A stretch of 64,000 nucleotides of DNA from Desulfosarcina widdelii (GTDB taxonomy: Bacteria; Desulfobacterota; Desulfobacteria; Desulfobacterales; Desulfosarcinaceae). Below are positions 27,661 to 48,365 of the stretch, one piece after another (position 1 is the stretch's first letter; each line of letters starts with the position of its first letter). Location: positions 1,984,001 through 2,048,000 of the forward strand of contig NZ_AP021875.1 of NCBI RefSeq assembly GCF_009688965.1, written 5' to 3'. The position numbers and the translations under genes were made by a program. The notes below the pieces were generated by a model. The model saw only the letters and a program-made list of their open reading frames with translations. It was not told where the DNA came from and did not search any database.

Positions 27661-27672
27661 GTCATCCCCCCA

Positions 27673-32821: not shown

Positions 32822-32854
32822 GGGTATTGCTCTTTCTCTTTTGCGGTTGCTTTA

Positions 32855-34120
32855 TTATTTGCGTTCGACCACCATGGCAATGCCCTGGCCGCCGCCGCCG
32901 CAGATGGTCTCCAGTCCGTATCGGACCTTGCTCCGGTTCATTTCGTGCAGCAGGGTCACCATGCGCATGACGCCGGTGGCGCCGATGGGATGGCCCAGGG
33001 AAATGCCCGATCCGTTCACGTTGACCTTGTGGTCCATATCTTCTTCCGATACGCCCATCAGCTTGGCATCGGCCAGCAGTTGAACGGCAAAGGCCTCCTG
33101 GATTTCGATCAGATCCATGTCGTCGATGGTCAGCCCGGCTTTGTCCAGGGCTTTGTTCACGGCCGCAGGAACCGCCGGATAGGTCAGGGTCGGATCGGCG
33201 CCGGCGACTCCGAAAGAGGTTACCGTCGCTAAAGGCGTGAGCCCCATGTCCGCTGCTTTCGAACGCGTCATCAGAACAATCGCCGCAGCGCCGTCGTTCT
33301 CTGTGGAAGAGTTGCCGGCGGTACAGATGCCATCCGGATAGACGGCCCGCAGCTTTGAAAGCTTATCCATAGAGGCGTCCGGACGGGGCGGTTCGTCGGT
33401 ATCGACGATGGTGGTCTGTCCTTTTTTGCCCGGAATTTCGACGGGGACGATCTCGCCTTTAAACCGGCCGGCCTGGATGGCTCCGCAGGCTTTCTGCTGG
33501 CTGCGCAGGGACCACCGGTCGGCCGCTTCACGGGTGATGCCCTCTTCCTTGGCTGCGATCTCGGCCCAGGACATCATCGAGTTGAGTTCTCCGAACCGTT
33601 CGATGGGTTGGGACATGACCCGGGCCCGTTGGATACGGTCGAAAAGCGGCAGGCCCCACATGGGCAGGGCACCGTGGCCCCGGGGCATGAATCCGAATTT
33701 GGGATCGACTTTTCCACCCAGGCCCTTTTTGACATACTCGCCGGGGATGTAGAGTTCCGCACGGCTCATGCTTTCGATGCCTCCAGCAACGGCGATGTCG
33801 GCATAGCCGCAGAGGATTTTCATGGTTGCAAAACAGATGGCATCCAGACCCGAGCAGCAGCGGCGGTCCAGGGTGATGCCTGTGGTCTCCACCGGCCAGT
33901 CGGCCGCCAGCAGGGCCATTCGGGCGATGTTGACCGATTCGCCGTTCTGATAAGACTGGCCGATAATGACGTCGTCCACGGTCGCCGGATCGACCTTGGC
34001 CCGCTTGACCGCTTCGTTTAAGACCAGGGCGCCGAGCCGATAGGCCGGAAGATCGGATAGTCCACCCAGATAGGCCCCGATCGGAGTTCTTACCGCACTT
34101 ACGATTACGACATCTTCCAT
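32855..34120 (-). CDS. Thiolase (acetyl-CoA acetyltransferase family)
   Basis: 421 residues from ATG 34120, which has GGAGGG five bases upstream; an earlier ATG at 34132 is too far upstream of it. DRRCCSGLDAI holds the nucleophile (Cys89), QEAFAVQLLAD replaces the usual NEAFA, NVNGSGISLGHPIGATGVMR contains the base His, and CGGGGQGIAMVVE the second Cys. It is about 25 residues longer than typical thiolases, mainly in the loop region after residue 125 (IPGEYVKKGLGGKVDPKFGFMPRGHG). It is likely a second, substrate-specific thiolase of the pathway. Confidence 0.92.
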   Translation of the reverse strand: MEDVVIVSAVRTPIGAYLGGLSDLPAYRLGALVLNEAVKRAKVDPATVDDVIIGQSYQNGESVNIARMALLAADWPVETTGITLDRRCCSGLDAICFATMKILCGYADIAVAGGIESMSRAELYIPGEYVKKGLGGKVDPKFGFMPRGHGALPMWGLPLFDRIQRARVMSQPIERFGELNSMMSWAEIAAKEEGITREAADRWSLRSQQKACGAIQAGRFKGEIVPVEIPGKKGQTTIVDTDEPPRPDASMDKLSKLRAVYPDGICTAGNSSTENDGAAAIVLMTRSKAADMGLTPLATVTSFGVAGADPTLTYPAVPAAVNKALDKAGLTIDDMDLIEIQEAFAVQLLADAKLMGVSEEDMDHKVNVNGSGISLGHPIGATGVMRMVTLLHEMNRSKVRYGLETICGGGGQGIAMVVERK

Positions 34121-34177
34121 TTTTCCCTCCACGCGTTTCGGGTCGTTCCGAAACCGGTTGTGAGCTGTTTTAAATAT

Positions 34178-35143
34178 CTATTCGCTTTTCGCCCATCGGC
34201 AGCGGATGGATTCCGCCTGGTCCATGATTTTACGGAAATACTCGGCTACCGGCAGCGACTGTTTGACCAGACCGGCGGCCTGCCCGCAAGCCCACACGCC
34301 ACCGTCCAGATCGCCTTTTCGATAGGCCTCCAATCCGCGTTCGCCTTTCATTTTGGGGAGGATATCCTCCAGGGGGGCGCAAGCTGTTTCCAATTCCAGC
34401 ACCTCCTGCGCCGTACGGTTGTTGAACGCGCGAACGGGCTTCTTGACGGAATTGAGCAGCAGGCAGGTCGAGGTTTCGTCGGCAGCGATCAGCGCCTTTT
34501 TGAAGCTTTCATGGATGGGGCATTCCGTGGTGGCCATCAGCGCCGTACCGATGACGATGCCCTCGGCGCCCATGGCAAAAGCCGCCATCAGGGCACGCCC
34601 ATCCGTGAAACCGCCGCCGGCCACTACCGGGATGGAAACCGAGTCGATCGTCTGGGGCAGCAGCACCATGGTGGTGACCCCTTCGGCGCTGGGGTGTCCG
34701 CCGCATTCGGTTCCAACGATGGTGAGCATATCCACACCCATTTTCTCCGCCTTGACGGCATCCTTGCGTCGTGCGCATTTGTGCATGTGGATCCGCCCGC
34801 CGCGCTTCAGGCGTTCGAGGTATTTTTCGGGGCTGTTGCCCGCCGTCTCGACGATCGTCACGCCTTCGTCATCGATGGCATCCAGCATATCCTCCACCGA
34901 AAAGGGGCGCAGGGAGGGGAACAGGTTGATATTTATAGCGAAGGGCTTGTCGGTTAGTTCCCTCACCTTTCGAATTTCCGCACGCAGGTCTTCTTTGGAA
35001 GCGAAGGTCGCCGAAGTGATAATTCCCAAACCTCCGGCGTTGCTGACTGCCGCAGCGAGTTCCGCCCGGCTCAGCCACTGCATGGCGCCGCCAATGATCG
35101 GCAGTTCGATGCCAAGAAGTTTGGTTACTCTCGTTTCCCACAT
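34178..35143 (-). CDS. Nitronate monooxygenase-family FMN protein (FabK/IpdC-like)
   Basis: 321 residues from ATG 35143 (GGGAG eight bases upstream). TIM barrel: LGIELPIIGGAMQWLSRAELAAAVSNAGGLGIITSATF, INLFPSLRP, GTECGGHPS, PVVAGGGFTDGRALMAAFAMGAEGIVIGTALMATTEC. FMN is bound at the C-terminal GGG/GT motifs. The family contains nitronate monooxygenase, the enoyl-ACP reductase FabK and the steroid-ring reductase/lyase partner IpdC. In a strict anaerobe with this gene neighbourhood a flavin-dependent C=C or carbonyl-CoA redox step is more plausible than an oxygenase. Confidence 0.85.
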   Translation of the reverse strand: MWETRVTKLLGIELPIIGGAMQWLSRAELAAAVSNAGGLGIITSATFASKEDLRAEIRKVRELTDKPFAININLFPSLRPFSVEDMLDAIDDEGVTIVETAGNSPEKYLERLKRGGRIHMHKCARRKDAVKAEKMGVDMLTIVGTECGGHPSAEGVTTMVLLPQTIDSVSIPVVAGGGFTDGRALMAAFAMGAEGIVIGTALMATTECPIHESFKKALIAADETSTCLLLNSVKKPVRAFNNRTAQEVLELETACAPLEDILPKMKGERGLEAYRKGDLDGGVWACGQAAGLVKQSLPVAEYFRKIMDQAESIRCRWAKSE

Positions 35144-35229
35144 GGTTTTTCTCCCGTTGGGCTGATTCCTGATTCTAAGTCTTTTCACTATATGCGTTCA
35201 TGATTCATGCTGCAGTTGAGCCGACTGCA

Positions 35230-36003
35230 TCATCTTCTACCGAATCCCATGCGCAAGGCGCCGTCCAGCCGGATCGATTCACCGTTAAGGTACCGGTTGT
35301 TAATGATGTGAAGCGCCAAAGCGGCGTATTCTTCTACCTGTCCGAGCCTCGAAGGAAAGGGCACCTGCTTGTTCAGCCGCTCTTTGGCCTCCGGAGGGAG
35401 CGTTCCGAGAAGGGGCGTGTCGAAAATACCCGGCAGAATCGTCATCACACGGATGCCGGTGTTGGCGAATTCCCGAGCCAGGGTCAGGGTCATGGAAACG
35501 ATGCCACCCTTTGAGGCCGAATAGGCCGCCTGGCCGATCTGGCCGTCGAAGGCGGCGATGGAGGCCGTATTGATATAAACGCCTCGTTCCCCACCTTCAT
35601 CAGGAGGATTTTCGCTGATGAGGGCAACCGTTGAACGGACCAGGTTAAAGGTTCCGACCAGGTTGACATTGACGATATTGGGGAACCATTCCGGAGCGAC
35701 CAATCCTTTCTTGCCAAGGATGCGGGTGGAACCACCGATGCCGGCGCAACTGGCGACAATATGGACGGTCCCGAAAGCGTTGCGGACCTGCGCGACAGCG
35801 TCGTCCACCGATGTGTGATCGGCGACATTGGCCGGCACGAAGATAGTTTCGCCGCCGAGTTCCGCGGCAGCCTTGGCGCCGTTTTCGGCATTCATATCGA
35901 AAAGAGCCACCTTGGCTCCGGATTGGACCAATGCCTGGGCCGTGGCCTTCCCCAATCCGGAAGCCCCGCCGGTTACGATTGCAACTTGATTCTCGGTTTT
36001 CAT
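35230..36003 (-). CDS. HSD10-like short-chain 3-hydroxyacyl-CoA dehydrogenase (paralogue)
   Basis: 257 residues, same length as the paralogue at 30111-30884 and sharing INTASIAAFDGQIGQ, KGGIVSM, LAREFAN-GIRVM-ILPGI-DTPLL, and LNGESIRLDG-LRMGF. TGGASGLGKATAQALVQSG is the NAD site. First gene behind the palindromic operator at 36036-36067, hence probably the head of the long catabolic operon. The two copies may act on different stereo- or chain-length intermediates. Confidence 0.9.
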   Translation of the reverse strand: MKTENQVAIVTGGASGLGKATAQALVQSGAKVALFDMNAENGAKAAAELGGETIFVPANVADHTSVDDAVAQVRNAFGTVHIVASCAGIGGSTRILGKKGLVAPEWFPNIVNVNLVGTFNLVRSTVALISENPPDEGGERGVYINTASIAAFDGQIGQAAYSASKGGIVSMTLTLAREFANTGIRVMTILPGIFDTPLLGTLPPEAKERLNKQVPFPSRLGQVEEYAALALHIINNRYLNGESIRLDGALRMGFGRR

Positions 36004-36035
36004 AAAAACTCCTTTTCAAAAGATGGAATTTTATT

Positions 36036-36086
36036 TTGATAATATATTTTATAAAATTTTATATCAAATAAGTTTCCGTTCGGCAA
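36036..36086 (-). promoter_or_regulatory. Operator site 1 and promoter of the long catabolic operon
   Basis: A 32-base palindromic region (36036-36067) begins TTGATA and ends TATCAA, centred on ATTTTATAAAAT at 36046-36057. On the minus strand a -35 TTGCCG (36086-36081), a 17-bp spacer and a -10 TATAAA (36063-36058) abut the core on its upstream side, so a protein bound at the core would block transcription of the gene starting at 36003. The same core occurs at 41574, 46803 and 47836. Confidence 0.65.
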
Positions 36087-36247
36087 TTGAATATTTTAAA
36101 TTCCTATAAAGATGATGAGAAAACGGTAAGCGCTTTGAAAATCTGCTTCTTGAAAGAGCGTATCACGGCAACTGCGGATTCACATGAAAAGACGGTAGCA
36201 AAAATTCGGTTATCAACCTCACGCGTGACAAGATTGTTTCGCATCAA

Positions 36248-37552
36248 TTACACCATCATGCTCGACAGCCAAAGCGCTAGCTGCGGAAATATCATGACCA
36301 GAGCCAGGCACAGGCCTTGGAGCAGAAGGAAGGGTACGATTGCCACATAGATGTGGGCCATGGTTACGGAAGGCGGCATGATACCCTTCATGATAAACAG
36401 GTTCAAACCGAAGGGCGGGGTGAGATAGCCCATTTCCATGTTGATGACAAAGAGAATGCCGAACCACAGCGGATCGAAACCCAGGTCTATGATGATGGGA
36501 ACGAACAGCGGCCCGCAAAGCATCACAATGGCAGCGGGATTCAGGAACATCCCGAGAATGAAAAAGATCCCCTGCATGAAAATAACGATCCACCAGCGCC
36601 AGATATCCAGCCCCGTCAATGCTTCGTTGATGACATCGTGAATTCCGGCCACGGCAATAAAATGAGAAAAGCATGAAGCACCCATGATGATCCACATAAT
36701 CATTGCGTTCGTGGATAGTGTGGTAACCAATGCCTTTTTGACATTCGCATAGGTTGCCCTGCCGTAGGCCGCCATACACAAGAAGGCGCCGAAAGCACCG
36801 ATACCGGCAGCTTCCGTGGGTGTTGCAACCCCGGTGTAAATCAGACCGAGAACGAGGAATATGAGCAGCACAGGTAAAGCAAAGCCCTTGAGCGCAACGA
36901 TTTTTTCCCGAAGCGAAAAGGATGTATCCACGGGCGGCCCCATCTCCGGTTTGATCCAGCAATAGATGGAGATATAGCCGATATACAAAAAGATCAGCAG
37001 GATTCCCGGCAGTACGCCTCCCATAAACAGCTTTCCAACCGAAACTTCGGCGACGCCCGCATAAACAACCATGATAATACTCGGCGGTATCAGGATTCCC
37101 AGCGTTCCACCAGCCATGATGCTTCCCAGCACCATGGACCGGTCGTATCCCCGCTTCATCATGGAGGGTGCGGCAATCAGCCCCATGGTTACGGTGGCCA
37201 CGGAACTGATGCCGGACATCGCACCGAAAATACCCGAGATCACCACCGTGCCCGAGGCGAGACCACCCCGAACCTTTCCCGCCCACCGGTAGATGATCTC
37301 GTACATGTCATCGCCCATTCCGCTGCTCTGCAGGAAGTTGGCCATCAGCAGAAACAAGGGAATGGCGATGTATATGAAATTATTGCTGTTTGCAAATGTG
37401 GTACTGACCACCATGTAAAGGCCGGACCAACCCCAGACATAGATGGTTCCAAAAATCGCAAGCCCCGACATCGTAAAAGCAATGGGAAACCCCAGTGCAA
37501 GCAAAAGAAACATGACTACGAGAATCGCGAAAGACAGCATCAAAACATCCAT
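36248..37552 (-). CDS. dctM: TRAP transporter large membrane subunit DctM
   Basis: 434 residues with about 12 membrane segments. FAILVVMFLLLALGFPIAFTMSG, ATVTMGLIAAPSMMKRGYDRSMVLGSIMAGGTLGILIPPSIIMVVYAGVAEVSVGKLFMGGVLPG and the last segments match DctM/TRAP-GI. It couples Na+ entry to uptake of the acid delivered by the periplasmic protein. It follows dctQ by 75 bases and dctP further upstream, transcribed as P-Q-M. A 244-bp AT-rich spacer with the operator follows it. Confidence 0.95.
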   Translation of the reverse strand: MDVLMLSFAILVVMFLLLALGFPIAFTMSGLAIFGTIYVWGWSGLYMVVSTTFANSNNFIYIAIPLFLLMANFLQSSGMGDDMYEIIYRWAGKVRGGLASGTVVISGIFGAMSGISSVATVTMGLIAAPSMMKRGYDRSMVLGSIMAGGTLGILIPPSIIMVVYAGVAEVSVGKLFMGGVLPGILLIFLYIGYISIYCWIKPEMGPPVDTSFSLREKIVALKGFALPVLLIFLVLGLIYTGVATPTEAAGIGAFGAFLCMAAYGRATYANVKKALVTTLSTNAMIMWIIMGASCFSHFIAVAGIHDVINEALTGLDIWRWWIVIFMQGIFFILGMFLNPAAIVMLCGPLFVPIIIDLGFDPLWFGILFVINMEMGYLTPPFGLNLFIMKGIMPPSVTMAHIYVAIVPFLLLQGLCLALVMIFPQLALWLSSMMV

Positions 37553-37627
37553 CAGGCGCCCCTCCGGTACGTGGCTGTGTATTTACGTATCGCCTGCAAC
37601 CGGTAATTGCAGACCGATACACGAGAT

Positions 37628-38131
37628 CTATTTGCTATTTTCTTCGATAAGAACTTGAATATTTTTGATGTACCTTGCAATAACCTGCAAGAGCAGCAAC
37701 AGGCCGCCCAGCGGTATCATCAACCATACCGGCCAAAGAGGTAAAGCGGCAATCGAGTCCGAGCGCTTCATGCTCGAAAGCACTCTCCAGAATTCGTCTC
37801 CCCCGAGCCAGATGAGTATGACACAGAGAAGAACGGTAAGCGAATAGGTTACAATTTCAACCCAGGCCTGGGTTTTCGGTGTCATGTTGGGATAGAATAA
37901 ATCGACGCGGACATGCCCGTCCCGCAACAGGCAATACCCACCGGCCAGCATGCTGATGGCGCAAAACATGTATTGCGTCACTTCCATGGACCAGAAAGTA
38001 GGGGCGTCGAAAAAATAGCGAACGATCACTTCGTAAACCACGAGCAATGTAAGTAACACCAGAATGCCGGCGGATACGACCTCGGTGATGAACGTGTTGA
38101 TGGATGCAATGATTTTCGAGATTCCGTCCAT
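37628..38131 (-). CDS. dctQ: TRAP transporter small membrane subunit DctQ
   Basis: 167 residues with four membrane segments (ISKIIASINTFITEVVSAGILVLLTLLVVYEVIVRYFF at the start, WLMIPLGGLLLLLQVIARY at the end). VIVRYFFDAPTFWSMEVTQYMF is typical of DctQ. The ATG at 38131 is chosen; a TTG three codons earlier (38140) is only three bases from AGGAG and therefore less likely. It pairs with DctM. Confidence 0.9.
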   Translation of the reverse strand: MDGISKIIASINTFITEVVSAGILVLLTLLVVYEVIVRYFFDAPTFWSMEVTQYMFCAISMLAGGYCLLRDGHVRVDLFYPNMTPKTQAWVEIVTYSLTVLLCVILIWLGGDEFWRVLSSMKRSDSIAALPLWPVWLMIPLGGLLLLLQVIARYIKNIQVLIEENSK

Positions 38132-38269
38132 GAATTTCAACGTCTCCTTTTCACGTTAAACCCACCCAATCCGGATCATTTTGTGTTTGCGCAACAAAAA
38201 CAATAAAGGACGTTGCACGAACCGGACGAATCGATATCAAATGACCGGGATTGGGCGGTCTCAAAACAT

Positions 38270-39265
38270 TTATTTTTTGGACTTCAGAAAGTCCTGGATT
38301 AACTTCACCTGCTTGGCACAGTTTTCGGAACGCTTGGCATGCTCTTCGTACAACCCATTGGTCGCTTCATGAAATTTTTTCTGCTCCTCTTTGGACAGTT
38401 CTATGGTTTCCACCCCATGCTTATTGTTAAAGGCTGCGATGTTATAATCCTGGGATTCGCAGAAGATAAACGAAAAATACATCGCTTCTTTTCCAGCCTG
38501 TTTCAACGCCATCTGATTTTCTTTCGACAACTTTTCCCAGGTGCGCTTACCGACAAACAGGTCTACGAACCCCGGCGAATAAGGGGGAGGAGAAGTCACA
38601 TAACTGACCACTTCGTGCAATCTGTATGCTTTGGTGGCATAAATCGGAAAAATCAGACCATCGATGGTGCCCCGCTGTAATGCAATATATTGCTCGGCCG
38701 GTGCCAGATTAACGGGAGTCGCGCCTAGTTTTTGGGCAACAGCGCCCAGCATTCCTGCGGCTCTCAGCTTTTGCCCTTTCATATCCTCCAGGCTTTTTAT
38801 CGGGGTTTTCGTCATGATGCCGAAACGTCCGGCCGCAACCGGGGCCAAATAGTAGAAATCGTATTTCGCCGAGGTTTCCCTCCAGAATTCGAGATATCCG
38901 GATTCCCAAAATTCGAGAGCTTCCACCGAATTCTTCCATGTATAAGGCAAATAAGTGCCGAAAGCTTCCTGGACCGTTCCGGAATAGTACAAGAGACTTG
39001 CGATGCCGATGTCGATCATCCCCCGTTCAACAGCCGTCAGCAATTCTTTCGCACCGGATAGCTGACCGGGAGCATATACTTTAACTTCAACCTCTCCATT
39101 GGTATATTCTTTTACTTTTTCCGCCAAATAGTTACTGGTTTGTCCTGCGATACCATTCAACGGGTAGATGCATTGCAGTTTCAACGTCGTTTTCGCCAAT
39201 ACGGGTTGAAGCCAGAATAAACAAATCGACATTGCCAGAACGATCACCACTGCATTCTTTCTCAT
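38270..39265 (-). CDS. dctP: TRAP transporter periplasmic solute-binding protein DctP
   Basis: 331 residues, N-terminal signal peptide (RKNAVVIVLAMSICLFWLQPVLA-K). AGRFGIMTKTPIKSLEDMKGQKLRAAG contains the conserved arginine that binds a carboxylate, followed by LGATPVNLAPAEQYIALQRGTIDGLIFPIYATKAYRLHEVVSYV. It captures a carboxylic acid in the periplasm. The substrate is not deducible; context suggests the acid degraded by the adjacent CoA pathway. The synthetase gene that may activate the imported acid lies 169 bases upstream. Confidence 0.93.
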   Translation of the reverse strand: MRKNAVVIVLAMSICLFWLQPVLAKTTLKLQCIYPLNGIAGQTSNYLAEKVKEYTNGEVEVKVYAPGQLSGAKELLTAVERGMIDIGIASLLYYSGTVQEAFGTYLPYTWKNSVEALEFWESGYLEFWRETSAKYDFYYLAPVAAGRFGIMTKTPIKSLEDMKGQKLRAAGMLGAVAQKLGATPVNLAPAEQYIALQRGTIDGLIFPIYATKAYRLHEVVSYVTSPPPYSPGFVDLFVGKRTWEKLSKENQMALKQAGKEAMYFSFIFCESQDYNIAAFNNKHGVETIELSKEEQKKFHEATNGLYEEHAKRSENCAKQVKLIQDFLKSKK

Positions 39266-39434
39266 TTTCCTCTCCTTTTTCGATTAGGGCTTGATTGGGC
39301 TTACGGTAAAAACTCTTCATCTTTCATTTGGAAAACGATCAAATAAAGGCACAGGGTCAAAAATATACGAGCCGAACACTCCCTAATTGCCGTTTGGATA
39401 TGGTGTAGCGGCAACCTAAAAATCCTTGCGTCAA

Positions 39435-41213
39435 TCATCTACCGCCAGTCGCACTGCTTAAAAAATCGTAAAGCTTGAGCCGATTGGCTTTTCCACTGGC
39501 AAGCATGGGCATCTCATCCAAAAAAATGACGTCGCGGATCTTCTTATAAGGAGCGACGCGACCGTTGACGAAGTCCATGATCTCCTTCGCCGTTGCCGTC
39601 GCGTCGTTTTTCAATTGAACGAAAGCGATGGGCAGTTCACCGACAACCGGGTCTTTTTTCCCGAGAACGACACAGTGCTTGACGTCACAATGGTCGAATA
39701 ATACATTTTCGAGCATGCTCGGCGCGATATTGTACCCCTTGTACTTGATCAGCTCTTTCTTTCTTCCCGTTATATAGAAAAAGCCGTCTTCGTCCATTTT
39801 TCCGATATCGCCGGTATACAGCCAGCCATCCCGATATGCACTGGCGGTGTCTTTGGGTTTTCCGAAATAGCCTTGGGTCACGGTCGGCCCTTTCTGGATC
39901 AACTCGCCCTCTTCACCAACCGGCATCTCCGTGAGCCCGTCAACCGGATCGACGACCTTGATCCAAGTAAATGGCACGGGAACGCCGACCGACACGCTCT
40001 TCTTAAAGCCGTTTCGATTGGCAAAATTCTTTGTCGACGTCATCGTACCTTCGGTGAGCGCCCAGGCCTCGCTAATTTTACCACTGATGCGCTTTTCGAA
40101 TTTTTCGGTCACGGCTTCGGGAACGGTCGAACCACCGACGGCCCATGTACGTATGCACGAAATATCCTGAGTTTCGATATCCGGACGCGACAGGATCGTC
40201 GAAAGCATCATCGGCGCGCCGCCGCCAAAGGATATTTTGTAACGTTGAATCATATCCAGCATCGAGTCCATATTGAAAACCGGCAAATGGATAAGCGGCA
40301 GCGCAGACATGAGCGGGTACATCAGGCGGCCCAAAAACCCCATCATATGCGTCCACGGAGGCACCGAAAGAATCCAGTCGATTCCATGGCGCAAGGGAAA
40401 GTCCCAGTCCGTGGAAAGGTCCTTTTCAAGATTCGTGAACTTCAAAAGCCCGTCGGTGTCCTGAACCGGGAATTGACCTGTGAGCGTCGATCCGTAAACA
40501 ATGCAGGCCGAAACGACATTGTAATGGGAAATCATGACGCCTTTTGGATAGCTCGTCGTCCCTGAGGTATATAGAATGGAGTAAATATCCTTTTTCGGCT
40601 CGATTGTGGGCTCGATCAGGCTGTCATCCGAAAAAATGTCGCAAAAACCGTAAAACGGTGATTGGTAATCTGGGGATTCTTTTTTTAGCAAAGAAAGTTT
40701 CAGTTCCTGGTCGTGTGAAAAAACGATAACGCTTTCCATGGCCGTTTTTTTCTCATCGACCAGATCCCGAATCACTGGCAGCAATTCATCCGAAACAACA
40801 ACGACTTTGGCTGCGGTATCGTTAAGTTGATACGCGACTTCATCTTTGATCAGTAAGGAATTGCATCCCACGTAAACGGCGCCGACCATGCTGATGGCAA
40901 TAATTGCGACGGCTACCTCGGGACAATTGCGGGCATAAACGGCCACCATGTCGCCTTTTTTTACTCCCATCTTATTCTGCAATCCTGATGCAAACCGCTC
41001 ACACAGTTCTTGAAATTCCACGTAGTTAACAATGAAATTTTCAGGTTCGTAAACCAAGGCGGTTGTCGATGGATAATACCTGGCGGAAGACCTCAGCCCC
41101 CAGTGAGCCGGTATTTCGGGGAGAACATATCCTGCATCGAGGGATCTTTTTATTTCCTCAGGGTACGCTGCAAACCATCGCGCGTTTTTTATTTCATCGG
41201 AACCGGTACGCAT
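39435..41213 (-). CDS. AMP-forming acyl-CoA synthetase
   Basis: 592 residues. SILYTSGTTSYPKGVMISHYN is the ATP/AMP-binding P-loop motif; EAWALTEGTMT, GWLYTGDIGKMDEDGFFYITGRKKELIKYKGYNIAPSMLEN (hinge) and the final GKANRLKLYDF with the catalytic lysine are complete. It activates a carboxylic acid to its CoA thioester. It probably activates the substrate brought in by the TRAP system and is the entry step of the pathway. Its promoter region contains operator site 2, and an insertion sequence lies directly behind that. The 360-bp leader before it carries no gene. Confidence 0.92.
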   Translation of the reverse strand: MRTGSDEIKNARWFAAYPEEIKRSLDAGYVLPEIPAHWGLRSSARYYPSTTALVYEPENFIVNYVEFQELCERFASGLQNKMGVKKGDMVAVYARNCPEVAVAIIAISMVGAVYVGCNSLLIKDEVAYQLNDTAAKVVVVSDELLPVIRDLVDEKKTAMESVIVFSHDQELKLSLLKKESPDYQSPFYGFCDIFSDDSLIEPTIEPKKDIYSILYTSGTTSYPKGVMISHYNVVSACIVYGSTLTGQFPVQDTDGLLKFTNLEKDLSTDWDFPLRHGIDWILSVPPWTHMMGFLGRLMYPLMSALPLIHLPVFNMDSMLDMIQRYKISFGGGAPMMLSTILSRPDIETQDISCIRTWAVGGSTVPEAVTEKFEKRISGKISEAWALTEGTMTSTKNFANRNGFKKSVSVGVPVPFTWIKVVDPVDGLTEMPVGEEGELIQKGPTVTQGYFGKPKDTASAYRDGWLYTGDIGKMDEDGFFYITGRKKELIKYKGYNIAPSMLENVLFDHCDVKHCVVLGKKDPVVGELPIAFVQLKNDATATAKEIMDFVNGRVAPYKKIRDVIFLDEMPMLASGKANRLKLYDFLSSATGGR

Positions 41214-41573
41214 GGGTCACTCCTTAAAATTGTCGGATTGCTCGTTACGTTCTCTCGGCAAGTGGATGTATCGTTTCAGGAGGCTCTTTATTATCATCGA
41301 TCCATTTGTATAAATATTGCCATTTTACTTATTTTGCCCCGTCTACGTTTATGGCTCCAAAAATTTTTAGTATGGAGAAAGAAGAGGGGATTATGCCGCA
41401 AAGTAGGTTGAATTTCCAAAAAAATGGGCAAACGGCGGTGTTCTGGAAGGCAGCATTGGATATGTTTTTCCGCTTAAAAATCAAAGGAGACCGTCCCCCT
41501 AAAATCATCGGAAACAGATAGAATAAAAGCCCCTGAACCTATAACTTTTCGACCTGAATGTTTTTTATACAAT
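41214..41573. other. Long leader of the acyl-CoA synthetase gene
   Basis: No protein gene is supported in these 360 bases. The minus strand from the candidate promoter near 41590 to the start codon at 41213 would be an unusually long 5' leader. The right part (about 41470-41520) has a GC-rich stretch AGGAGACCGTCCCCCT. No recognised riboswitch or terminator hairpin was seen. Confidence 0.4.
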
Positions 41574-41614
41574 ATTTTATAAAATTTAATATAAAAAAGA
41601 TTATTTCTTGTCAA
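41574..41614 (-). promoter_or_regulatory. Operator site 2 and promoter of the acyl-CoA synthetase gene
   Basis: Core ATTTTATAAAAT at 41574-41585. On the minus strand TTGACA (41614-41609), a 17-bp spacer and TATTAA (41591-41586) directly precede the core. The layout equals that of site 1. The insertion sequence begins 37 bases upstream of the -35 element. Confidence 0.6.
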
Positions 41615-41650
41615 GTCTATTTTTAATTTATTTATCCCAATTGCTATTTA

Positions 41651-43351
41651 GGGTTTCCTGAATTAAAGATAAACACTTGAAATACTATACATTTTATGGT
41701 ATTGAGGATCGAGCTAAATGCAAATATAACCACGCTTTACCCCTCAAAACCCTTGCACTTTTCTCGGTCCTATCATGTATCGACATAATCAAAAGCAGCT
41801 GGAATTCGAAACTTTCGAATTGCCTTTCGGCGGAAAACTGCGAAGCGACAATCGCTGGGTGAAATTAGCCAAGTTTATTCCATGGGGTCAGTTCGAACCG
41901 GCCTACAGTAAATCGTTGACCAACTCCGGTTTGGGCCCTCCGGCCAAATCGGTAAGAGTCGCCTTGGGCGCCCTGATTATCAAGGAGCGCTTGGGAACCA
42001 GCGATGAAGAGACGGTAGAACAGATCCGGGAAAATCCGTATCTCCAATACTTTTTAGGCTACAAGGCCTATGAGGACGAAAAGCCCTTTGATCCGTCCCT
42101 GTTCGTATACTTCCGCAAGCGGTTTGGCAAAAAGATGCTGGCCAAGATCAATGAGTCGATTGCCCGCAAGGCACTTGAACAAGAAAAACAATCGAAAGAC
42201 CGTTCCCAAACCAAAAATGACGATGATTCCACGCCTACAGGTGGAGGTAGTGAAAACCAGGGCAAATTACTTCTGGATGCCACATGTACCCCCGCGGATA
42301 TTACTTTCCCAACCGACCTCAAGTTGTTGAATACCGCCCGGGAGAAGAGTGAAGGGATCATTGATATCCTACACAGTCCATTCAAGGGGAAATATCCCAA
42401 ACCGCGTACCTACCGTAAGTTAGCCCGCAAAGCGTTTCTATCTGCAGCCAAAAGCAAAAGATTGTCAAAGAGCAAGAGGCGTAAGGCCATTCGGAAACAG
42501 TTGGGATATCTCAAGCGCAACTTGAAAAGCATAACCAAGCTATCCCAACGAACGCCGCTAACGAAGCTCAGTCCCCGTCAGTACAAAGAGCTGCTGGTCA
42601 TTCACGAAGTCTATCGCCAGCAGCAATGGATGTATGACCAGCATGAAAATCGTATCGATGATCGCATCGTCAGCATCAGCCAACCCCATGTGCGTCCGAT
42701 CAAACGGGGTAAGGCCGGTGCGGCTACCGAATTTGGTGCCAAGATATCGGTCAGTCTCATCAATGGCATTTCATTCGTGGACCGCATCAGTTGGGATGCC
42801 TTCAATGAATCCGGGGATCTGATCGATCAGATCAAGGCATTTCGAAAACGATTTGGGCACTATCCGGCATCGGTTCATGTGGATCGGATTTACCGTAACC
42901 AAGATAATCGCCGGTTCTGCAAGAAACATGGAATCCGCCTTTCGGGTCCCCCGCTGGGCCGGCCACCGGCCGCTGTCGAGATACAGAAAGAGATCAAAAA
43001 GCAGGTCCGTCAGGATGAGCTCGATCGGATCCCGATCGAGGGAAAGTTCGGCCAGGGCAAGCGGCGCTTCAGTCTATCCAGAATCATGTGTAAGCTGGCA
43101 GTGACATCCGAGACGGCGATCGCGGTATCCTTCATCGTCATGAACTTGGAGAAATGGCTGAAAGGCCTTTCTTCTCTCTTTTTTACTTCCTCGTTGCTGT
43201 TCATGGTCCATATCAGAGTGCTTCAGAGACGATTTAACGGGCTTTTGGGTCGATTAGTCGGTAAATATTTTCAGGCTAAAATGCACCTGTCACTGTTGAG
43301 AGGGTGAATTTACCCATGCTAATGCGGCATCTTTACTAATTCAGGAAGCCC
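41651..43351 (+). mobile_element. Insertion sequence, 1.7 kb, with 6-bp target duplication
   Basis: Terminal inverted repeats: left GGGTTTCCTGAATTA (from 41651), right end reading inward GGGCTTCCTGAATTAG (to 43351), one mismatch in the first 15. TATTTA flanks both ends (41645-41650 and 43352-43357), a clean 6-bp direct duplication. One transposase gene fills the element. The insertion lies between the synthetase promoter and the 3' end of the acyl-CoA dehydrogenase gene. Confidence 0.88.
41775..43307 (+). CDS. IS5-like DDE transposase
   Basis: 510 residues. N-terminal domain with KSVRVALGALIIKERLGTSDEETVEQIRENPYLQYFLG is widespread in IS5-superfamily transposases. Candidate catalytic residues: Asp in LLDATCTPADITFPTD, Asp in VHVDRIYRN, and Glu in IPIEGKFGQGKRR. 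A basic linker of about 50 residues (near 215-265) lies between the first and second. No frameshift or stop; the element could be active. The family assignment beyond the DDE fold is from memory of similar proteins. Confidence 0.88.
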   Translation: MYRHNQKQLEFETFELPFGGKLRSDNRWVKLAKFIPWGQFEPAYSKSLTNSGLGPPAKSVRVALGALIIKERLGTSDEETVEQIRENPYLQYFLGYKAYEDEKPFDPSLFVYFRKRFGKKMLAKINESIARKALEQEKQSKDRSQTKNDDDSTPTGGGSENQGKLLLDATCTPADITFPTDLKLLNTAREKSEGIIDILHSPFKGKYPKPRTYRKLARKAFLSAAKSKRLSKSKRRKAIRKQLGYLKRNLKSITKLSQRTPLTKLSPRQYKELLVIHEVYRQQQWMYDQHENRIDDRIVSISQPHVRPIKRGKAGAATEFGAKISVSLINGISFVDRISWDAFNESGDLIDQIKAFRKRFGHYPASVHVDRIYRNQDNRRFCKKHGIRLSGPPLGRPPAAVEIQKEIKKQVRQDELDRIPIEGKFGQGKRRFSLSRIMCKLAVTSETAIAVSFIVMNLEKWLKGLSSLFFTSSLLFMVHIRVLQRRFNGLLGRLVGKYFQAKMHLSLLRG

Positions 43352-43510
43352 TATTTATGAATAGTATTCAATAAAATTTCAGCGGTTTTTGCGCAGCAGA
43401 AAATCGATTGGCTGTATGTTAAGCCGGCAATATCGCTCTATTGCCCACCGAAACTTATATTTTAACCGTTCAGGCTGCATACGCACTCAAGCAGGGGATC
43501 GGGTTGTCAG

Positions 43511-43552
43511 TTTTTTTGTCTAATAGAAGCAGGCAGCCTCATGACTGCCTGC
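43511..43552 (-). terminator. Intrinsic terminator after the 572-residue acyl-CoA dehydrogenase gene
   Basis: Reading the minus strand, GCAGGCAG (43552-43545) pairs with CTGCCTGC (43536-43529), with an 8-base loop, followed by TTCTATT and a short A/C run. The stem is perfect. It lies 15 bases after the stop codon at 43567. Confidence 0.75.
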
Positions 43553-43566
43553 GGAACAGATCAGCC

Positions 43567-45285
43567 TTACTTGGGCATGGAAAACACATCGTTGAGAGGT
43601 TCGACATCTTCTGTCCATACCGCATTCCATTCCTCAATATCGATAACCGGTGTGGTTCCCACAATCTCTTTGAGATATGAAATTTGTTGGTCGTTCATGG
43701 GATATTTGGAAATCTGATCCAAGGCGTAAGCTGCCATATCGGATACATATAACCCGAAAAGCTGGTTAACGGTCCTCTTATGAATATCGTTGTTGTTTGC
43801 ACCTTCGAGAATTAGCTGACCGTAAACGACCACTACAAGCATATGGCCGAGGTTAAGCATATAATCCATCTGTCTTTTGAGTGCTTTTTCAATGGGGCAC
43901 TCCAGAAATAATTTTTCTAAAATTTCGACCTGTTTGTAGAGTTGAGCAACGTTGGGCATATCCAGATATTTTTTATAGGTTTTGCTGTAATCATTAAACT
44001 GGATCGATGCGATGCTTCCATATGTCTGATTAAAAAGGTTGTTGTCATCACAAAGGTCCACTCGGACGGGAATATCGGGATATTCTTTATGGTTGCTGAA
44101 AAAGCTTTGAATACACTTGATAACAAGGCTCATATTCACATGCGCCGTTCCTTCTAATCGTGGCGGCCCCTGGATATCTCTTGTTGCCGTTTCGGTATAG
44201 GTATCTTTTTCGAAAGCCTTGGCCGAAGCGGCATCGAGGATGTTGGTCATCACCTTAACGCCTTCAAGGCCCGTCTTCATTTTAACGATCGGATTATAAA
44301 GAAGATATCTTCTGTCTTCGGATGAGCTGCACCGAAAGTAATCGCAAGCTCTGTAAACATACAGACGCATTCCGAGAAGACGCAGGTACGCTTCTGAATA
44401 GAAACGGCGGATATGAACCATATCGGTAACTTTTTTACCGTAGAGAATACGGTTATATGAATGACGCAGGGATTCATAGAAAGAGTGCGTGCAGATACCG
44501 ATAGGTGAAACGCCAACCATGAACTTGCCGATATTGATAGCGGCCAGGGCTTCTTCCCATGCTTTCTTACCGAAAGCGTAAACATCCTCTTTAGGAACGG
44601 GATAGTCTACAAGACGATATTCGCCGACATAGCCTGATCCATAAGTTGACGTTCGAATTCTTTTAACATCGTTATAATGCGGATGCTGTGAATCCGCAGC
44701 AAACATCACCCACTCATCCACGGTATCCTTAATTTTCGCAAATGTCGTTGTGATGGCGACGTTTGAAAAACCGATGTAATATTTGGAGCCGTCAGCACGA
44801 TAATTGCCGTCCGGCAATTCCGAAATACACATTTCGTTCGAGTACAGGTCGGCGCCGTGCTCCTTTTCTGAAATACCATAGGCGAAGATACGGCCTTCTT
44901 TAAGTTTTTGCGCGGCCCATTTCTGAACCTTTTTGTTCGTTCCCATCCAGATGGGAGCAAGACCGAGCATGGTGACTTGGAATGGATAGCGGTTGCCGAT
45001 CCCATAGAAAGCGAGAAGTTCGTTGAACTCGGTAATCCGTCTTAAATCGAAATAAGAGTTTTCGTCACCGTGTTCCTTAGGCGTAAGCAGACGGGCAAAA
45101 ATTTGATTCTTCGCCTGAAATTTCAGCATGTCATAACAGACTTTATAGTCCGCGTCATCCTCGTTGAGGTTGTCCAAGCCTTTGTCTTCATAGTACTTTA
45201 TGACTGACCTGAACATCTCCTTCGTTTCGTCATCATGATGTTCACCGGCATAGGTCTGTGGATTTAAGAGATAATTGGCCCCCAT
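43567..45285 (-). CDS. Long acyl-CoA dehydrogenase-family protein (572 residues)
   Basis: About 190 residues longer than normal acyl-CoA dehydrogenases. SEKEHGADLYSNEMCISELPDGNYRADGSKYYIGFSNVAITTTFAKI is the beta-domain flavin site; RDIQGPPRLEGTAHVNMSL corresponds to the C-terminal R-x-EGT motif. The extra C-terminal region (about 425-572) is helical, as in acyl-CoA oxidases and the ACAD variants of Desulfobacterota. No substrate is inferable. Preceded by a 187-bp spacer after the flavoenzyme gene and closed by a terminator; probably co-regulated with the island. Confidence 0.8.
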   Translation of the reverse strand: MGANYLLNPQTYAGEHHDDETKEMFRSVIKYYEDKGLDNLNEDDADYKVCYDMLKFQAKNQIFARLLTPKEHGDENSYFDLRRITEFNELLAFYGIGNRYPFQVTMLGLAPIWMGTNKKVQKWAAQKLKEGRIFAYGISEKEHGADLYSNEMCISELPDGNYRADGSKYYIGFSNVAITTTFAKIKDTVDEWVMFAADSQHPHYNDVKRIRTSTYGSGYVGEYRLVDYPVPKEDVYAFGKKAWEEALAAINIGKFMVGVSPIGICTHSFYESLRHSYNRILYGKKVTDMVHIRRFYSEAYLRLLGMRLYVYRACDYFRCSSSEDRRYLLYNPIVKMKTGLEGVKVMTNILDAASAKAFEKDTYTETATRDIQGPPRLEGTAHVNMSLVIKCIQSFFSNHKEYPDIPVRVDLCDDNNLFNQTYGSIASIQFNDYSKTYKKYLDMPNVAQLYKQVEILEKLFLECPIEKALKRQMDYMLNLGHMLVVVVYGQLILEGANNNDIHKRTVNQLFGLYVSDMAAYALDQISKYPMNDQQISYLKEIVGTTPVIDIEEWNAVWTEDVEPLNDVFSMPK

Positions 45286-45472
45286 ATCGTTCCTCCTTTA
45301 AATTCATGGCTTATGCGGAAAACCATCATGCATTTTTATTTCTTTGAGATTGGCAATAATGGTTTACTCATTAGCGTTTGGTAAAAATGTCAGTTCTTGC
45401 CTATCCTCTTTTTCTGCCGGTAAATTTTGACTTGTTTTTTATTTCAGTGTGTTTGGGAAAGCGTTCAAACTT

Positions 45473-46615
45473 CTATAAAAGATAACATCTAAGCCCCTCT
45501 TCCTCTCGAAGCGTTTCCAGGCATTGATTGCAGGAGATGCAACTCGCCCTTTCACTGCCACCGTTAAGCCAGCGATTGGGGAGATCGGGTTCGCGGATCA
45601 ACGGCCGGCTCAATGCAACAAGGTCGGCATCGCCGCAGCAGACGATTTCATCCATTAACGACGGTGTTTTCATTCCACCGACGAGGATGATCTTCGCCCT
45701 TTGCATTTTTTGTCGGAAGGCTCTGGCGAACCTGCGGTGATATGCTTCATCAGCGACAGTTCCAATCCGCTTACGGGCCTCTGGAATCCGTTCCGCCCGC
45801 CAGCCAATGTCTTCGGGATCCCGGGTAATCGTTTCCCACATGCCACTGCTGATCTCCAGAGCGGCATAACCGGATTCCTCGAAAATTTCTCCGAGTTCGA
45901 GCGCCTCGGCAAGCTCAATGCCTGATTCCAAAAAATCGCAGGCATTCATTTTAACCAACACAGGAAAATCCATGCCAATTAGGTCTTTGGCCTGCCGAAT
46001 GATCTCTGTCATAATCCGGGCCCGATTCTCCGTTTTCCCTCCAAACTGATCTTTCCTGTGGTTGGTATGGGGCGAGAGGAAAGAACTCAACAACCAGCCG
46101 TGCGCGGCATGAACCTGAACAGCGTCGAAGCCGGCTCGCTTCGCGTAACCAATGGCAGCAGCACTTTTTTCGATAAAGGCTTCGATCTCATGGCTTTTCA
46201 TCTCACGCGGCATTCTTTCAGTAAAAGGCTCAAGAATGGGCGATGGTGCAACCGGTTGACGATCGACGGTGGCAGGCAACTGCCTGCCGGTATGACCGAT
46301 CTGCAATGCCACCTTACAGTCATTGCCGACCCCATGAATCGTTTCGGGTATCTGTTTTATGGTTTCCAGGCAGTCTGCACGGTCGACAGCGATCGTACGA
46401 GGCAGCTTCCCATCCTCTTCAGGGTACGTCAAACCGGTTATGATCAACCCTACGCCCCCGTTGGCCAACCTTTTGTAAAAATCGAAATAAAGTTGTGTCG
46501 GTTTGCCATCCGGATCGGCCTTGGCTTCGTATGTCGCCGAACGGACGAGTCGATTTTTCAATGACATCGAACCTATCATGGTAGGCGAAAATAGATGAGT
46601 AAACTGGGTGGCCAC
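45473..46615 (-). CDS. Old-yellow-enzyme-family NADH:flavin oxidoreductase, barrel only
   Basis: 380 residues starting at GTG 46615 (AGGA about ten bases upstream). FMN barrel: LFSPTMIGSMSLKNRLVRSATYEAKAD, HAAHGWLLSSFLSPHTNHRKDQFGGKTENRARIM, ILVGGMKTP. The C-terminus has C-x2-C-x2-C-x11-C (residues about 361-378) fitting the [4Fe-4S] site of 2,4-dienoyl-CoA reductases and related OYE enzymes, but the following FAD/NAD(P)H domain is absent. It could reduce a conjugated C=C with electrons from another protein. Preceded by operator site 3. Confidence 0.85.
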   Translation of the reverse strand: MATQFTHLFSPTMIGSMSLKNRLVRSATYEAKADPDGKPTQLYFDFYKRLANGGVGLIITGLTYPEEDGKLPRTIAVDRADCLETIKQIPETIHGVGNDCKVALQIGHTGRQLPATVDRQPVAPSPILEPFTERMPREMKSHEIEAFIEKSAAAIGYAKRAGFDAVQVHAAHGWLLSSFLSPHTNHRKDQFGGKTENRARIMTEIIRQAKDLIGMDFPVLVKMNACDFLESGIELAEALELGEIFEESGYAALEISSGMWETITRDPEDIGWRAERIPEARKRIGTVADEAYHRRFARAFRQKMQRAKIILVGGMKTPSLMDEIVCCGDADLVALSRPLIREPDLPNRWLNGGSERASCISCNQCLETLREEEGLRCYLL

Positions 46616-46692
46616 AATAGTTAATTCCTGTGAAAAGAGAAGTATTTATCAGTTTTTCCGTCACAGCGTGCAGCGCAGCAACGATGCGTCCC

Positions 46693-46795
46693 TGCTCTTA
46701 CAACGTTACGACCCTAACATTTTTCAGGCTGCCAACCATGTGTTCCATATTGGATCGGACAGGAAGCGCTCTGTTCATGGAAAGCTTTTTTTCAC
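46693..46795 (-). pseudogene. 3' remnant of a duplicated gntR gene
   Basis: On the minus strand this encodes SNMEHMVGSLKNV, matching the end of the intact regulator (SGMEHMIDSLKNGRV). The DNA from 46706 to 46752 is about 80 percent identical to 47106-47152. The rest of the gene is missing; the fragment ends 8 bases before operator site 3. It marks the left copy of an old tandem duplication. Confidence 0.8.
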
Positions 46796-46802
46796 GTAAA
46801 AT

Positions 46803-46855
46803 ATTTTATAAAATTTTTTGTAAACATTGCTAAGTTATTATTGAAGGCTTGTCAA
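46803..46855 (-). promoter_or_regulatory. Operator site 3 upstream of the flavoenzyme gene
   Basis: Core ATTTTATAAAAT at 46803-46814. A TTGACA on the minus strand (46855-46850) lies 35 bases upstream of it, further than at sites 1 and 2, and no good -10 is evident, so this copy may be partly decayed. In the duplicated unit it is the equivalent of site 4. Confidence 0.5.
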
Positions 46856-47004
46856 GACAAATCTTGAAAACCTTCTACGTATCCTCTATTTTTCGTTTGA
46901 GTTACAAATAGTTAAATCATTCCTGATAAAAAATGGGGAGGGGAAGGAAGGTGACGACATGTTTCTCTCATGTGCGCATGGCGTGAAACAATTTTGTCGT
47001 AAAG
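46856..47004. other. Non-coding spacer inside the duplicated region
   Basis: No gene seen. TTGTCAAG at 46849-46856 is shared with the regions right of sites 2 and 4 (TGTCAAG at 41609 and 47876), consistent with common ancestry of promoter regions. The remaining sequence is AT-rich then G-rich (GGGGAGGGGAAGGAAGG near 46934) with no recognisable function. Confidence 0.35.
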
Positions 47005-47086
47005 TTGGGAAGGCGTTTGAGCTTCTATAAATGATGACAATCGCTGCTATAATCCGGGCTTGATTGTCCGTTGTCCCTCCAGATTG
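47005..47086 (-). pseudogene. Remnant of a duplicated old-yellow-enzyme gene
   Basis: On the minus strand 47086-47044 encodes QSGGTTDNQARII, matching QFGGKTENRARIM of the intact flavoenzyme. The stretch 47005-47043 matches the 3' end of that gene and its downstream bases (GGGAAGGCGTTTGAGCTTCTATAAA against GGGAAAGCGTTCAAACTTCTATAAA at 45457 onward). The middle and 5' parts are deleted. It lies directly behind the intact gntR gene, the position its partner would have had. Confidence 0.78.
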
Positions 47087-47089
47087 AAT

Positions 47090-47800
47090 TTACAAGGACA
47101 CCACCCTACCGTTTTTCAGACTGTCAATCATATGTTCCATACCGGATCGAATGTGTTCACGAACGAGTTGAATGGTTTTTTTTTCATCCTTTTTGCTAAG
47201 ATACTGCAACATATCCCGATGGTCTTTTATTATTTTTTTAATCCGCTCTTCAGAAACGTATTCCGCTCTGTACTTTAAATAGATACGTTCCATAACCGTC
47301 TCGAGAAGATCGACCATGACCTGATTTCCTGATGCCTTGGCTATCGTCAAGTGGAAAGAGGCATCTGTCAGCATCATTTTTCTCCGATTCGTCGGTACCG
47401 TACTGTCCTTTTGAAGCCGAAACGACTCTCGAATCGCTTCAACTTTATCTGCAGTTAATTTATTGATCGAAATCGGAATCAAATAAACCTCTAACGCCTC
47501 TCTTGCCTGATATAGTTGCCTGGCCTCGGTTTCGGTTATTTCAGCAACGAAAAAGCCCTTGTTCTGCTCATATCGGACCAGTTTTGCATTTTCCAACCGG
47601 TGTAATGCCTGCAGCAAGGGGGTCGTGCTCACATTTAACTGCCGGGCCAAGTCCTGAAGGATCAGTTTCTGCCCGGGAGAAAGATCCTGATTGTACATCA
47701 TGGTCTTTATCTGGGTATAAAGCGTCTCAATGGATTTTCTTTTGGAAGGGCCTTTTTTCCGGGGTTTGCTCTGGGATTCTACGGTTGCAGTTGCTCTCAT
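47090..47800 (-). CDS. GntR-family regulator, FCD (FadR) subfamily
   Basis: 236 residues. Winged helix about residues 20-95 (IKTMMYNQDLSPGQKLILQDLARQLNVSTTPLLQALHRLENAKLVRYEQNKGFFV); FCD ligand domain 100-230 with metal/ligand residues in TDASFHLTIAKASGN, KDHRDML and REHIRSGMEHM. FadR-type proteins respond to organic acids or acyl-CoA and usually repress. The N-terminal 20 residues are basic. It heads the 34-kb catabolic run on the same strand and lies 36 bases behind operator site 4, so autoregulation and control of the island are likely. Confidence 0.92.
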   Translation of the reverse strand: MRATATVESQSKPRKKGPSKRKSIETLYTQIKTMMYNQDLSPGQKLILQDLARQLNVSTTPLLQALHRLENAKLVRYEQNKGFFVAEITETEARQLYQAREALEVYLIPISINKLTADKVEAIRESFRLQKDSTVPTNRRKMMLTDASFHLTIAKASGNQVMVDLLETVMERIYLKYRAEYVSEERIKKIIKDHRDMLQYLSKKDEKKTIQLVREHIRSGMEHMIDSLKNGRVVSL

Positions 47801-47835
47801 TGCTCGTTCACCTGATTAAATATCATTTATAATAT

Positions 47836-47881
47836 ATTTTATAAAATTTGATAAATGCGCAAAAAATGGACCACCTGTCAA
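47836..47881 (-). promoter_or_regulatory. Operator site 4 upstream of gntR
   Basis: Core ATTTTATAAAAT at 47836-47847, 35 bases before the gntR start codon; TTGACA on the minus strand at 47881-47876. AATATATTTTATAAAATTT is identical here and at site 1. Autoregulatory position. Confidence 0.6.
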
Positions 47882-47988: not shown

Positions 47989-48297
47989 TTACTTCACTTT
48001 TCCGCCGGCCTCATGAAACCGCTGCGTGATTGTGTCGGTCAGTTCAGCGGCGGTATCGAGCAACTCGGCCACGGCATCCTGACCGTTTTCACGGGACTGG
48101 GCGGCCCACTTGCGGTAATCCTCGGCGTGATGATCGTTGTGCTGGATCCAATGGTCCAGTAATTTGACGAGCTTTTCCGGAAAAGATAGCGCCCCGTGGC
48201 TGTGGGTGTGGGTGTGATCGTGGTCATGGTCATGGTGGTGATCGTGATCGTGGTGATGATGATCGTGTCCGTGGTCGTGATCATGGTGGTGGGACAT
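47989..48297 (-). CDS. His/Asp-rich small metal-binding protein
   Basis: 102 residues from the ATG at 48297, which is better placed behind AGGAG than the ATG two codons upstream (48303). Residues 1-33 are almost only His and Asp, a tail able to bind Ni, Zn or Co. The second half (LSFPEKLVKLLDHWIQHNDHHAEDYRKWAAQSRENGQDAVAELLDTAAELTD) is a compact helical domain found in small metal-related proteins, with WIQHNDHHAEDYRKWA conserved in my recollection of homologues in archaea and Desulfobacterota. Candidate metal storage or chaperone. A promoter is visible upstream. Confidence 0.75.
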   Translation of the reverse strand: MSHHHDHDHGHDHHHHDHDHHHDHDHDHTHTHSHGALSFPEKLVKLLDHWIQHNDHHAEDYRKWAAQSRENGQDAVAELLDTAAELTDTITQRFHEAGGKVK

Positions 48298-48365
48298 TTG
48301 CATTCTCCTGTGCGCTTGGGTGAATCGCCGAATCCAGCCTGCCGTCCTTTTTTCTCAGCTTACAC

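Follow-up and report, generated by a model that had tools for sequence, protein, structure and literature searches.

A putative GntR/FCD regulon with an A/T-only palindromic operator in an acyl-CoA catabolic island of Desulfosarcina widdelii

A stretch of 64,000 nucleotides from the Desulfosarcina widdelii genome (contig NZ_AP021875.1, positions 1,984,001 to 2,048,000; hereafter the window) contains an uncharacterised acyl-CoA catabolic island, in which four exact copies of the 12-bp palindrome ATTTTATAAAAT precede minus-strand transcription units, one of them being the gene of an FCD-type GntR regulator (gntR, 47090-47800). Sequence comparisons indicate that these palindromes are very probably the operators of this regulator; the arrangement is best read as a repressor regulon that includes the regulator's own gene and has an operator of non-canonical type. 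The palindrome consists of A and T only in all four cores and appears to belong to an operator family that was not found in the open-licence literature searched. This assignment would name a regulon, with its likely sensor type, for the island, and the motif would connect some of the still uncharacterised FCD-GntR proteins in sulfate reducers and related bacteria with their target genes. The candidate operators are located as follows:

36046-36057: operator 1, promoter of the long acyl-CoA operon; distance to the start codon at 36003, 42 bases
41574-41585: operator 2, promoter of the acyl-CoA synthetase and TRAP transporter genes; distance to the start codon at 41213, 360 bases
46803-46814: operator 3, upstream of the genes for an OYE-family flavoenzyme and an acyl-CoA-dehydrogenase-like protein; distance to the start codon at 46615, 187 bases
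47836-47847: operator 4, promoter of gntR itself; distance to the start codon, 35 bases

The coordinates of the four cores had been given in a previous sequence-only reading of the window and proved exact, and its statement that the window holds no further exact copy can be extended to matches with up to one mismatch. Shuffles of the window that preserved dinucleotides contained 0.09 sites on average, and none of 100 shuffles reached four. A search for the motif elsewhere in the genome (7,297,718 bases), conducted by pattern matching with mismatches rather than with a weight matrix, returned seven exact copies of ATTTTATAAAAT, four of which lie inside the island within ~12 kb, compared with three copies of the same word read back to front; taking the three copies outside the island as background, the Poisson chance of finding four in 12 kb is ~2e-11. 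The four sites share a 16-mer, ATATTTTATAAAATTT (plus strand), which is absent elsewhere in the genome and beyond which their flanks differ. No genome-wide family of ATATTTTATAAAATTT was apparent, as up to three mismatches gave 118/125 matches versus 101/107 for the control word. Symmetry over 32 bases, which had been claimed for site 1, extends to 13 of its 16 base pairs and is therefore substantial without being perfect; the corresponding values for sites 2, 3 and 4 are 13, 10 and 10.

The three exact 12-mers outside the island comprise one within a long open reading frame in a stretch of 31% GC and two at local GC contents of 0.42 and 0.49 with no long open reading frame across them, one of these having a 61-amino-acid frame; genes of the island pathway were not seen within 1.5 kb of any of the three. 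Furthermore, three one-mismatch matches at 3.10-3.13 Mb were considered as a second regulon and rejected, their flanks being identical: they constitute a dispersed repeat carrying the operator mimic ATTTGATAAAAT (genome positions 3,102,119, 3,104,722 and 3,128,389; L067 and L068).

We then compared the sites with consensus promoter elements. Each of the four was confirmed to lie upstream of a minus-strand unit, at 35-360 bases from the start codon, and the −35/−10 pairs reported to abut the cores of sites 1 and 2 with a 17-bp spacer were recovered on the minus strand as TTGCCG-17-TATAAA and as TTGACA (41609-41614)-17-TATTAA (41586-41591), respectively. Perfect TTGACA hexamers are also found on the minus strand 35 bases upstream of the core of site 3 (46850-46855) and 28 bases upstream of that of site 4 (47876-47881). 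By themselves, promoter-like pairs are no commoner here than in shuffles (17 versus 17.8). To the extent that consensus promoter calls can be relied on, the operators are thus placed on or directly after the promoters of the regulator and its putative targets, as in a repressor regulon, and these positions fit a repressor. The promoter at site 2 is also bordered by an IS5-family element (41627-43375; transposase at 41775-43307). Its terminal inverted repeats, of 39 nt, are imperfect (74% complementary), and the element ends 12 bases short of the −35 hexamer on the upstream side, an insertion at the very edge of the promoter.

To evaluate the link between the palindrome and the regulator, the promoters of related FCD-GntR genes were analysed. 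Loci were drawn from the best matches of genome searches at the levels of family (30), order (389), class (389, the same hits as for the order) and phylum (7 and 395), with 21 further loci from a scan of genome contigs using an alignment as query (a single-protein query found none). Second copies (L132, L135, L136, L138, L139 and L183), near copies (L080 and L178), two loci with the gene at a contig end (L074 and L081) and two that gave no alignment (L055 and L058) were dropped before counting. The recognition helices, read from the alignment, separated 61 genes without arginine at the position of Arg49 of FadR from 11 with it (n=11 kept after leaving out L149, L150 and L057); L145 and L177 represent one promoter counted twice, without a site, so that the 61 correspond to 60 distinct promoters.

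When all 12-bp palindromes were ranked by their occurrence, with up to one mismatch, in the 250 bases upstream of the 61 genes, the first was ATTTAATTAAAT (13 promoters versus 0.57 expected), the second ATTTGATCAAAT (9 versus 0.28 expected from shuffles) and the ninth ATTTTATAAAAT (4 versus 0.54); no comparable palindrome emerged from the 11 genes that keep the second arginine. The A/T framework of these words, ATTTNATNAAAT, was present exactly in 15 of the 61 promoters at −250 to 0, relative to at most one of 58-62 in any of the seven control intervals, and with up to one mismatch in 23 of the 61, relative to 0-5 in the control intervals. It ranked first of 60 patterns made of the same letters, the mean over all 60 being 0.6 exact matches. 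Of the 23 site-bearing promoters, 19 have a perfect TTGACA in the 60 bases preceding the site (in L161 it overlaps the core by one base), with the core on it or up to 38 bases downstream; the frequency at a random position of the same promoters was 0.24, and 11 of the 38 site-less promoters have a TTGACA anywhere in the 250 bases. The suggestion that the palindrome belongs to the GntR protein is thereby strengthened, since part of the related promoters carry the word or a variant of its central bases. ATTTAATTAAAT represents a third version of the operator, found in the FCD-GntR promoters L078/L138, L141 and L187 together with the helix SRTPIINAL or SRTPVNNAL; its carriers include Desulfospira joergensenii and a metagenome-assembled genome labelled Propionivibrio.

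In two other genomes, relatives of GntR were examined together with their gene neighbourhoods. In genome G079, a regulator 67% identical to GntR adjoins a homologue of the synthetase, a 78% identical flavoenzyme and an 83% identical thiolase; the variant ATATTATCAAAT lies directly before the synthetase homologue, and ATTTAATTATAT lies 27 bases after TTGACA in the gntR promoter. The synthetase homologue itself (L092, 11177-11698) matches as two pieces (query 6-97 and 456-542) and may be internally deleted or misassembled. In genome G153, a regulator 39% identical at a locus of 66% GC is preceded, 181 bases from its assumed start, by an exact 12-mer that is the single copy in the 5.6-Mb genome. 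This regulator heads a run of genes for a TRAP transporter, a 3-hydroxyacyl-CoA dehydrogenase, CoA-transferase subunits, a 65% identical thiolase and an acyl-CoA dehydrogenase, the proteins without a homologue in the window being named by reading their sequences. Overall, 20 exact copies of ATTTTATAAAAT were found in 8 of 13 other genomes, and none of the 11 inspected besides that of G153 stands beside a homologue of the GntR. Two of the copies, with no regulator homologue seen nearby, are each followed after some hundred bases by a similar gene pair, in which an open reading frame of 553 amino acids (L121, position 271, G079) or 557 amino acids (L126, position 2625, G178) is followed by a short-chain dehydrogenase gene; another exact copy precedes TRAP genes (L122).

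The second-ranked palindrome points to a sister regulon in D. widdelii itself. Two exact copies of ATTTGATCAAAT are present in its genome (L151 and L152; genome positions 4,650,867 and 7,185,110), one located 15 bases before the gene of a paralogous regulator with the helix SQTPVIQALKWL and the other 23 bases before a frame resembling a 2-oxoacid:ferredoxin oxidoreductase subunit, as named by reading the sequence. Assignment of the latter copy is uncertain, since a divergent GntR-like gene, whose helix is the canonical SRTPLR, also has it 180 bases upstream. Nine of ten other genomes of the family contain ATTTGATCAAAT, at 23 places in total; of the 15 places that were read, six, each in a different genome, immediately precede a homologue of the oxidoreductase gene (70-95% identical) and nine do not, and three of the remaining eight adjoin regulator genes by their coordinates (G013, G014 and G028). 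Discrimination between the island regulon and its sister may rest on the two symmetric positions at the centre.

The GntR protein (236 amino acids) consists of a GntR-type winged helix-turn-helix followed by an FCD domain, both above cut-off, whereas its FadR_C score (20.0 bits) falls under the cut-off of 23.6. A structure model built from eight aligned proteins (predicted local distance difference test score, pLDDT, 87.7) shows the winged helix-turn-helix with the recognition helix at residues 59-71 joined to an all-helical FCD domain, as in the FadR subfamily, with six C-terminal helices (90-113, 117-126, 136-155, 160-176, 184-202 and 206-230). A six-helix C-terminal bundle marks the VanR group. 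The best fold matches of the model are TM0439, McbR and PmiR, E. coli FadR itself appearing first at rank 33. All eight aligned proteins have H150, H194 and H216, which, with D146 of this GntR, form a predicted metal-site signature; this D-H-H-H arrangement is the pattern of metal-binding FCD proteins and is lacking in E. coli FadR (PMC7674646). The earlier designation of a FadR-type regulator at 47090-47800 is therefore correct as to the gene and its GntR and FCD domains, and not as to the E. coli FadR type, which has a FadR_C domain and no metal-binding histidines. On account of the metal-site signature, the sub-threshold FadR_C score and the fold matches, a small carboxylate is a likelier ligand than acyl-CoA, the candidate put forward before; the TRAP transporter in the putative regulon would also point to a carboxylate.

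Operators of the FadR subfamily carry TKGT/ACMA boxes whose guanines are contacted by arginines of the recognition helix (PMC4494728), and in Atu1419 changing the guanine read by Arg45 abolishes binding (PMC7797058); BioR and NanR are exceptions to the GT/AC consensus (PMC4494728). The four cores have no TKGT/ACMA box, membership of the subfamily resting on the protein, and the contrast previously drawn between the AT-only motif and the boxes of E. coli FadR is borne out and applies to the GT...AC consensus of the subfamily as well. The recognition helix of GntR reads STTPLLQAL, as compared with, for example, SRTPIREAL in canonical FCD proteins; with the register to E. coli FadR taken from the shared S-x-T-P pattern, threonine occupies the position of Arg45 and leucine that of Arg49, and an Arg45-type, guanine-reading arginine is absent. 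Among the 61 related proteins, the second of the two FadR arginines is missing in all and both are missing in 49, while 12 keep arginine at the Arg45 position (for example SRTPIINAL, with ATTTAATTAAAT).

These data lead us to propose, tentatively, that a branch of FCD-GntR proteins in sulfate reducers and their kin, including one site-bearing match in the metagenome-assembled genome labelled Propionivibrio, may have dropped the arginine-guanine readout; such proteins would read the A/T framework ATTTNATNAAAT with a helix lacking the second arginine, and mostly lacking either, perhaps largely through DNA shape, and the central pairs would choose between paralogues. If true, arginine-free readout would be a further mode of DNA recognition in the largest GntR subfamily. 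Two results weigh against the operator assignment, the first of them also against this readout. Motif and arginine loss do not run in parallel: the promoters of 7 of the 12 proteins that keep Arg45 have the site (5 exact) versus 16 of the 49 without both arginines (10 exact). The motif being at least as frequent in the former, our confidence in the assignment and in an arginine-free readout is slightly lowered, and what the group shares is that the second arginine is missing, rather than both. Inspection by eye revealed no rule by which helix residues would set the two central bases.

In the regulon as we picture it, the ligand-free GntR dimer would occupy ATTTTATAAAAT over the −10 element to the early transcribed region and block RNA polymerase, so that the transporter, the activating ligase, the oxidation enzymes and gntR would be shut off together; a small carboxylate, either substrate or product of the pathway, would enter the metal-containing FCD pocket and release GntR from the DNA. 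Several observations count against this assignment. Site 2 lies 360 bases from the start of the synthetase gene, which is long. At up to one mismatch, 38 of the 61 related promoters have no site, and these include those of most regulators that are 38-48% identical to GntR (L075, L076, L133, L134, L162-L167, L182 and others). The promoters are not independent of each other, as one sister clade makes up 11 of the 61 and holds 6 of the 15 exact sites (9 lie outside it), and the controls, which keep the second arginine, are few (n=11). The three exact 12-mers of G079 are not at its gntR or synthetase genes. Finally, the homologue in genome G003, 63% identical, has no site, a transposase-like gene beginning 84 bases upstream (L037; excluded from the promoter count).

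Taking the alternatives in turn, the sites might be real operators whose main binder is another protein, such as the sister GntR, another regulator or a nucleoid protein. Cross-binding is conceivable given the near-identical ATTTGATCAAAT in the promoter of the sister regulator, AT-only sites suit many DNA-binding proteins, and many close relatives of GntR do not have the word in their promoters. We nevertheless regard this as unlikely, as the word tracks relatives of GntR into other genomes, including the locus of 66% GC, stands upstream of gntR itself and is common to the 12 kb of a single pathway, with three copies scattered elsewhere in the genome. There is likewise little probability that GntR binds the sites mainly as an activator or dual regulator, in the way that the FCD protein CitO activates (PMC4746285): the cores of sites 1 and 2 come immediately after the −10 element, where a bound protein would block the polymerase, and the placement of the core relative to TTGACA in the 19 of 23 related promoters is also a polymerase-blocking one. 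A chance likeness of AT-rich promoters would draw on the AT-only composition of the word and on promoter-like pairs being no commoner than in shuffles, and is highly improbable in the face of the shuffled windows, the concentration of four of the seven genome copies in the island, the single copy of G153 at its regulator, and the positional and pattern controls. That the four island sites are copies of a dispersed repeat, like the one at 3.10-3.13 Mb, or of the scar of a mobile element is hardly credible, as they have just 16 bases in common.

The proposed GntR regulon was also compared with known systems. The operators of FadR, LldR, PdhR and DgoR are, as here, palindromes at promoters bound by proteins with a winged helix-turn-helix and a C-terminal FCD domain (PMC4494728), and differ from the present case in the GT/AC of the core and in the arginines of the helix (Arg45 and Arg49 in FadR, T and L here). 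Atu1419, a member of the VanR group and a fold match of GntR, recognises the palindrome ATGTATACAT, which is similarly short, AT-rich and located at the −10 element or between −35 and −10; it represses catabolic genes and itself and has a metal in its effector domain, yet it needs the guanine read by Arg45, whereas the core described here has no G or C and the protein has threonine (PMC7797058). BioR of the FadR subfamily binds TTATMKATAA, an AT-rich palindrome that likewise departs from the GT/AC consensus and is a different word (PMC4494728). No report tying ATTTTATAAAAT, ATTTAATTAAAT, ATTTGATCAAAT or ATTTNATNAAAT to a GntR regulator was found in the titles and starts of abstracts of the 20 papers listed out of 25 matching ones in the open-licence literature, a description elsewhere being possible.

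The genes of the four units, numbered after the operators, are listed below, in part with domain matches:

47090-47800, minus strand: gntR, FCD-type GntR regulator, proposed binder of the operators (GntR, 6.4e-13; FCD, 7.3e-20)
45473-46615, minus strand: OYE-family flavoenzyme, unit 3 (Oxidored_FMN, 2.8e-54)
43567-45285, minus strand: acyl-CoA-dehydrogenase-like protein, unit 3 (Acyl-CoA_dh_1, 9.2e-8)
39435-41213, minus strand: acyl-CoA synthetase, unit 2 (AMP-binding, 3.2e-73)
36248-39265, minus strand: TRAP transporter, unit 2 (dctP, 38270-39265; dctQ, 37628-38140; dctM, 36248-37552)
35230-36003, minus strand: short-chain dehydrogenase, first gene of unit 1
34178-35188, minus strand: flavoenzyme of the FabK/nitronate-monooxygenase family, unit 1
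32855-34132, minus strand: thiolase, unit 1 (homologues near regulators in G079, 83% identical, and G153, 65% identical)
30998-32821, minus strand: fused CoA-transferase-family protein of 607 amino acids, unit 1
22236-30884, minus strand: probable rest of unit 1 (short-chain dehydrogenase, CoA-transferase III, two acyl-CoA dehydrogenases, enoyl-CoA hydratase, thiolase and fused hydratase/dehydrogenase)

All genes identified between 28913 and 47800 are on the minus strand downstream of a site, except for the plus-strand IS5-family transposase. The synthetase and TRAP genes, separated by a gap of 169 bases, are presumably co-transcribed, and unit 1 probably runs on to about 22236, judging from the common strand and short gaps. 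Relatives of the acyl-CoA-dehydrogenase-like protein of unit 3 are 40-44% identical, one of them being a second copy in the same genome. Scans of the window against Rfam (at the gathering threshold) and for tRNA genes gave no matches.

The minus-strand gene list at 22236-41213 resembles the IpdF/IpdC/IpdAB/FadA6/FadD3 module for steroid rings. KstR2 is a TetR-family protein. The KstR2 regulon, which acts on the last two steroid rings, places a similar list of genes under one local repressor, sharing with the island a short-chain dehydrogenase, a FabK-like reductase, a CoA-transferase-like protein, a thiolase, acyl-CoA dehydrogenases and an acyl-CoA ligase (PMC5380842). The 607-amino-acid CoA-transferase-like protein has a marginally better match to glutaconate CoA-transferase than to IpdA and keeps a glutamate, aligned with a glutamate in the CoA-transferase beta subunit of G153 and probably the catalytic one, where IpdB is reported to have glycine (PMC5380842); for these two reasons, a steroid-ring substrate was not assigned. 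Just upstream of gntR, a small protein with a long N-terminus rich in histidine and aspartate is encoded on the minus strand at 47989-48303 and looks metal-binding.

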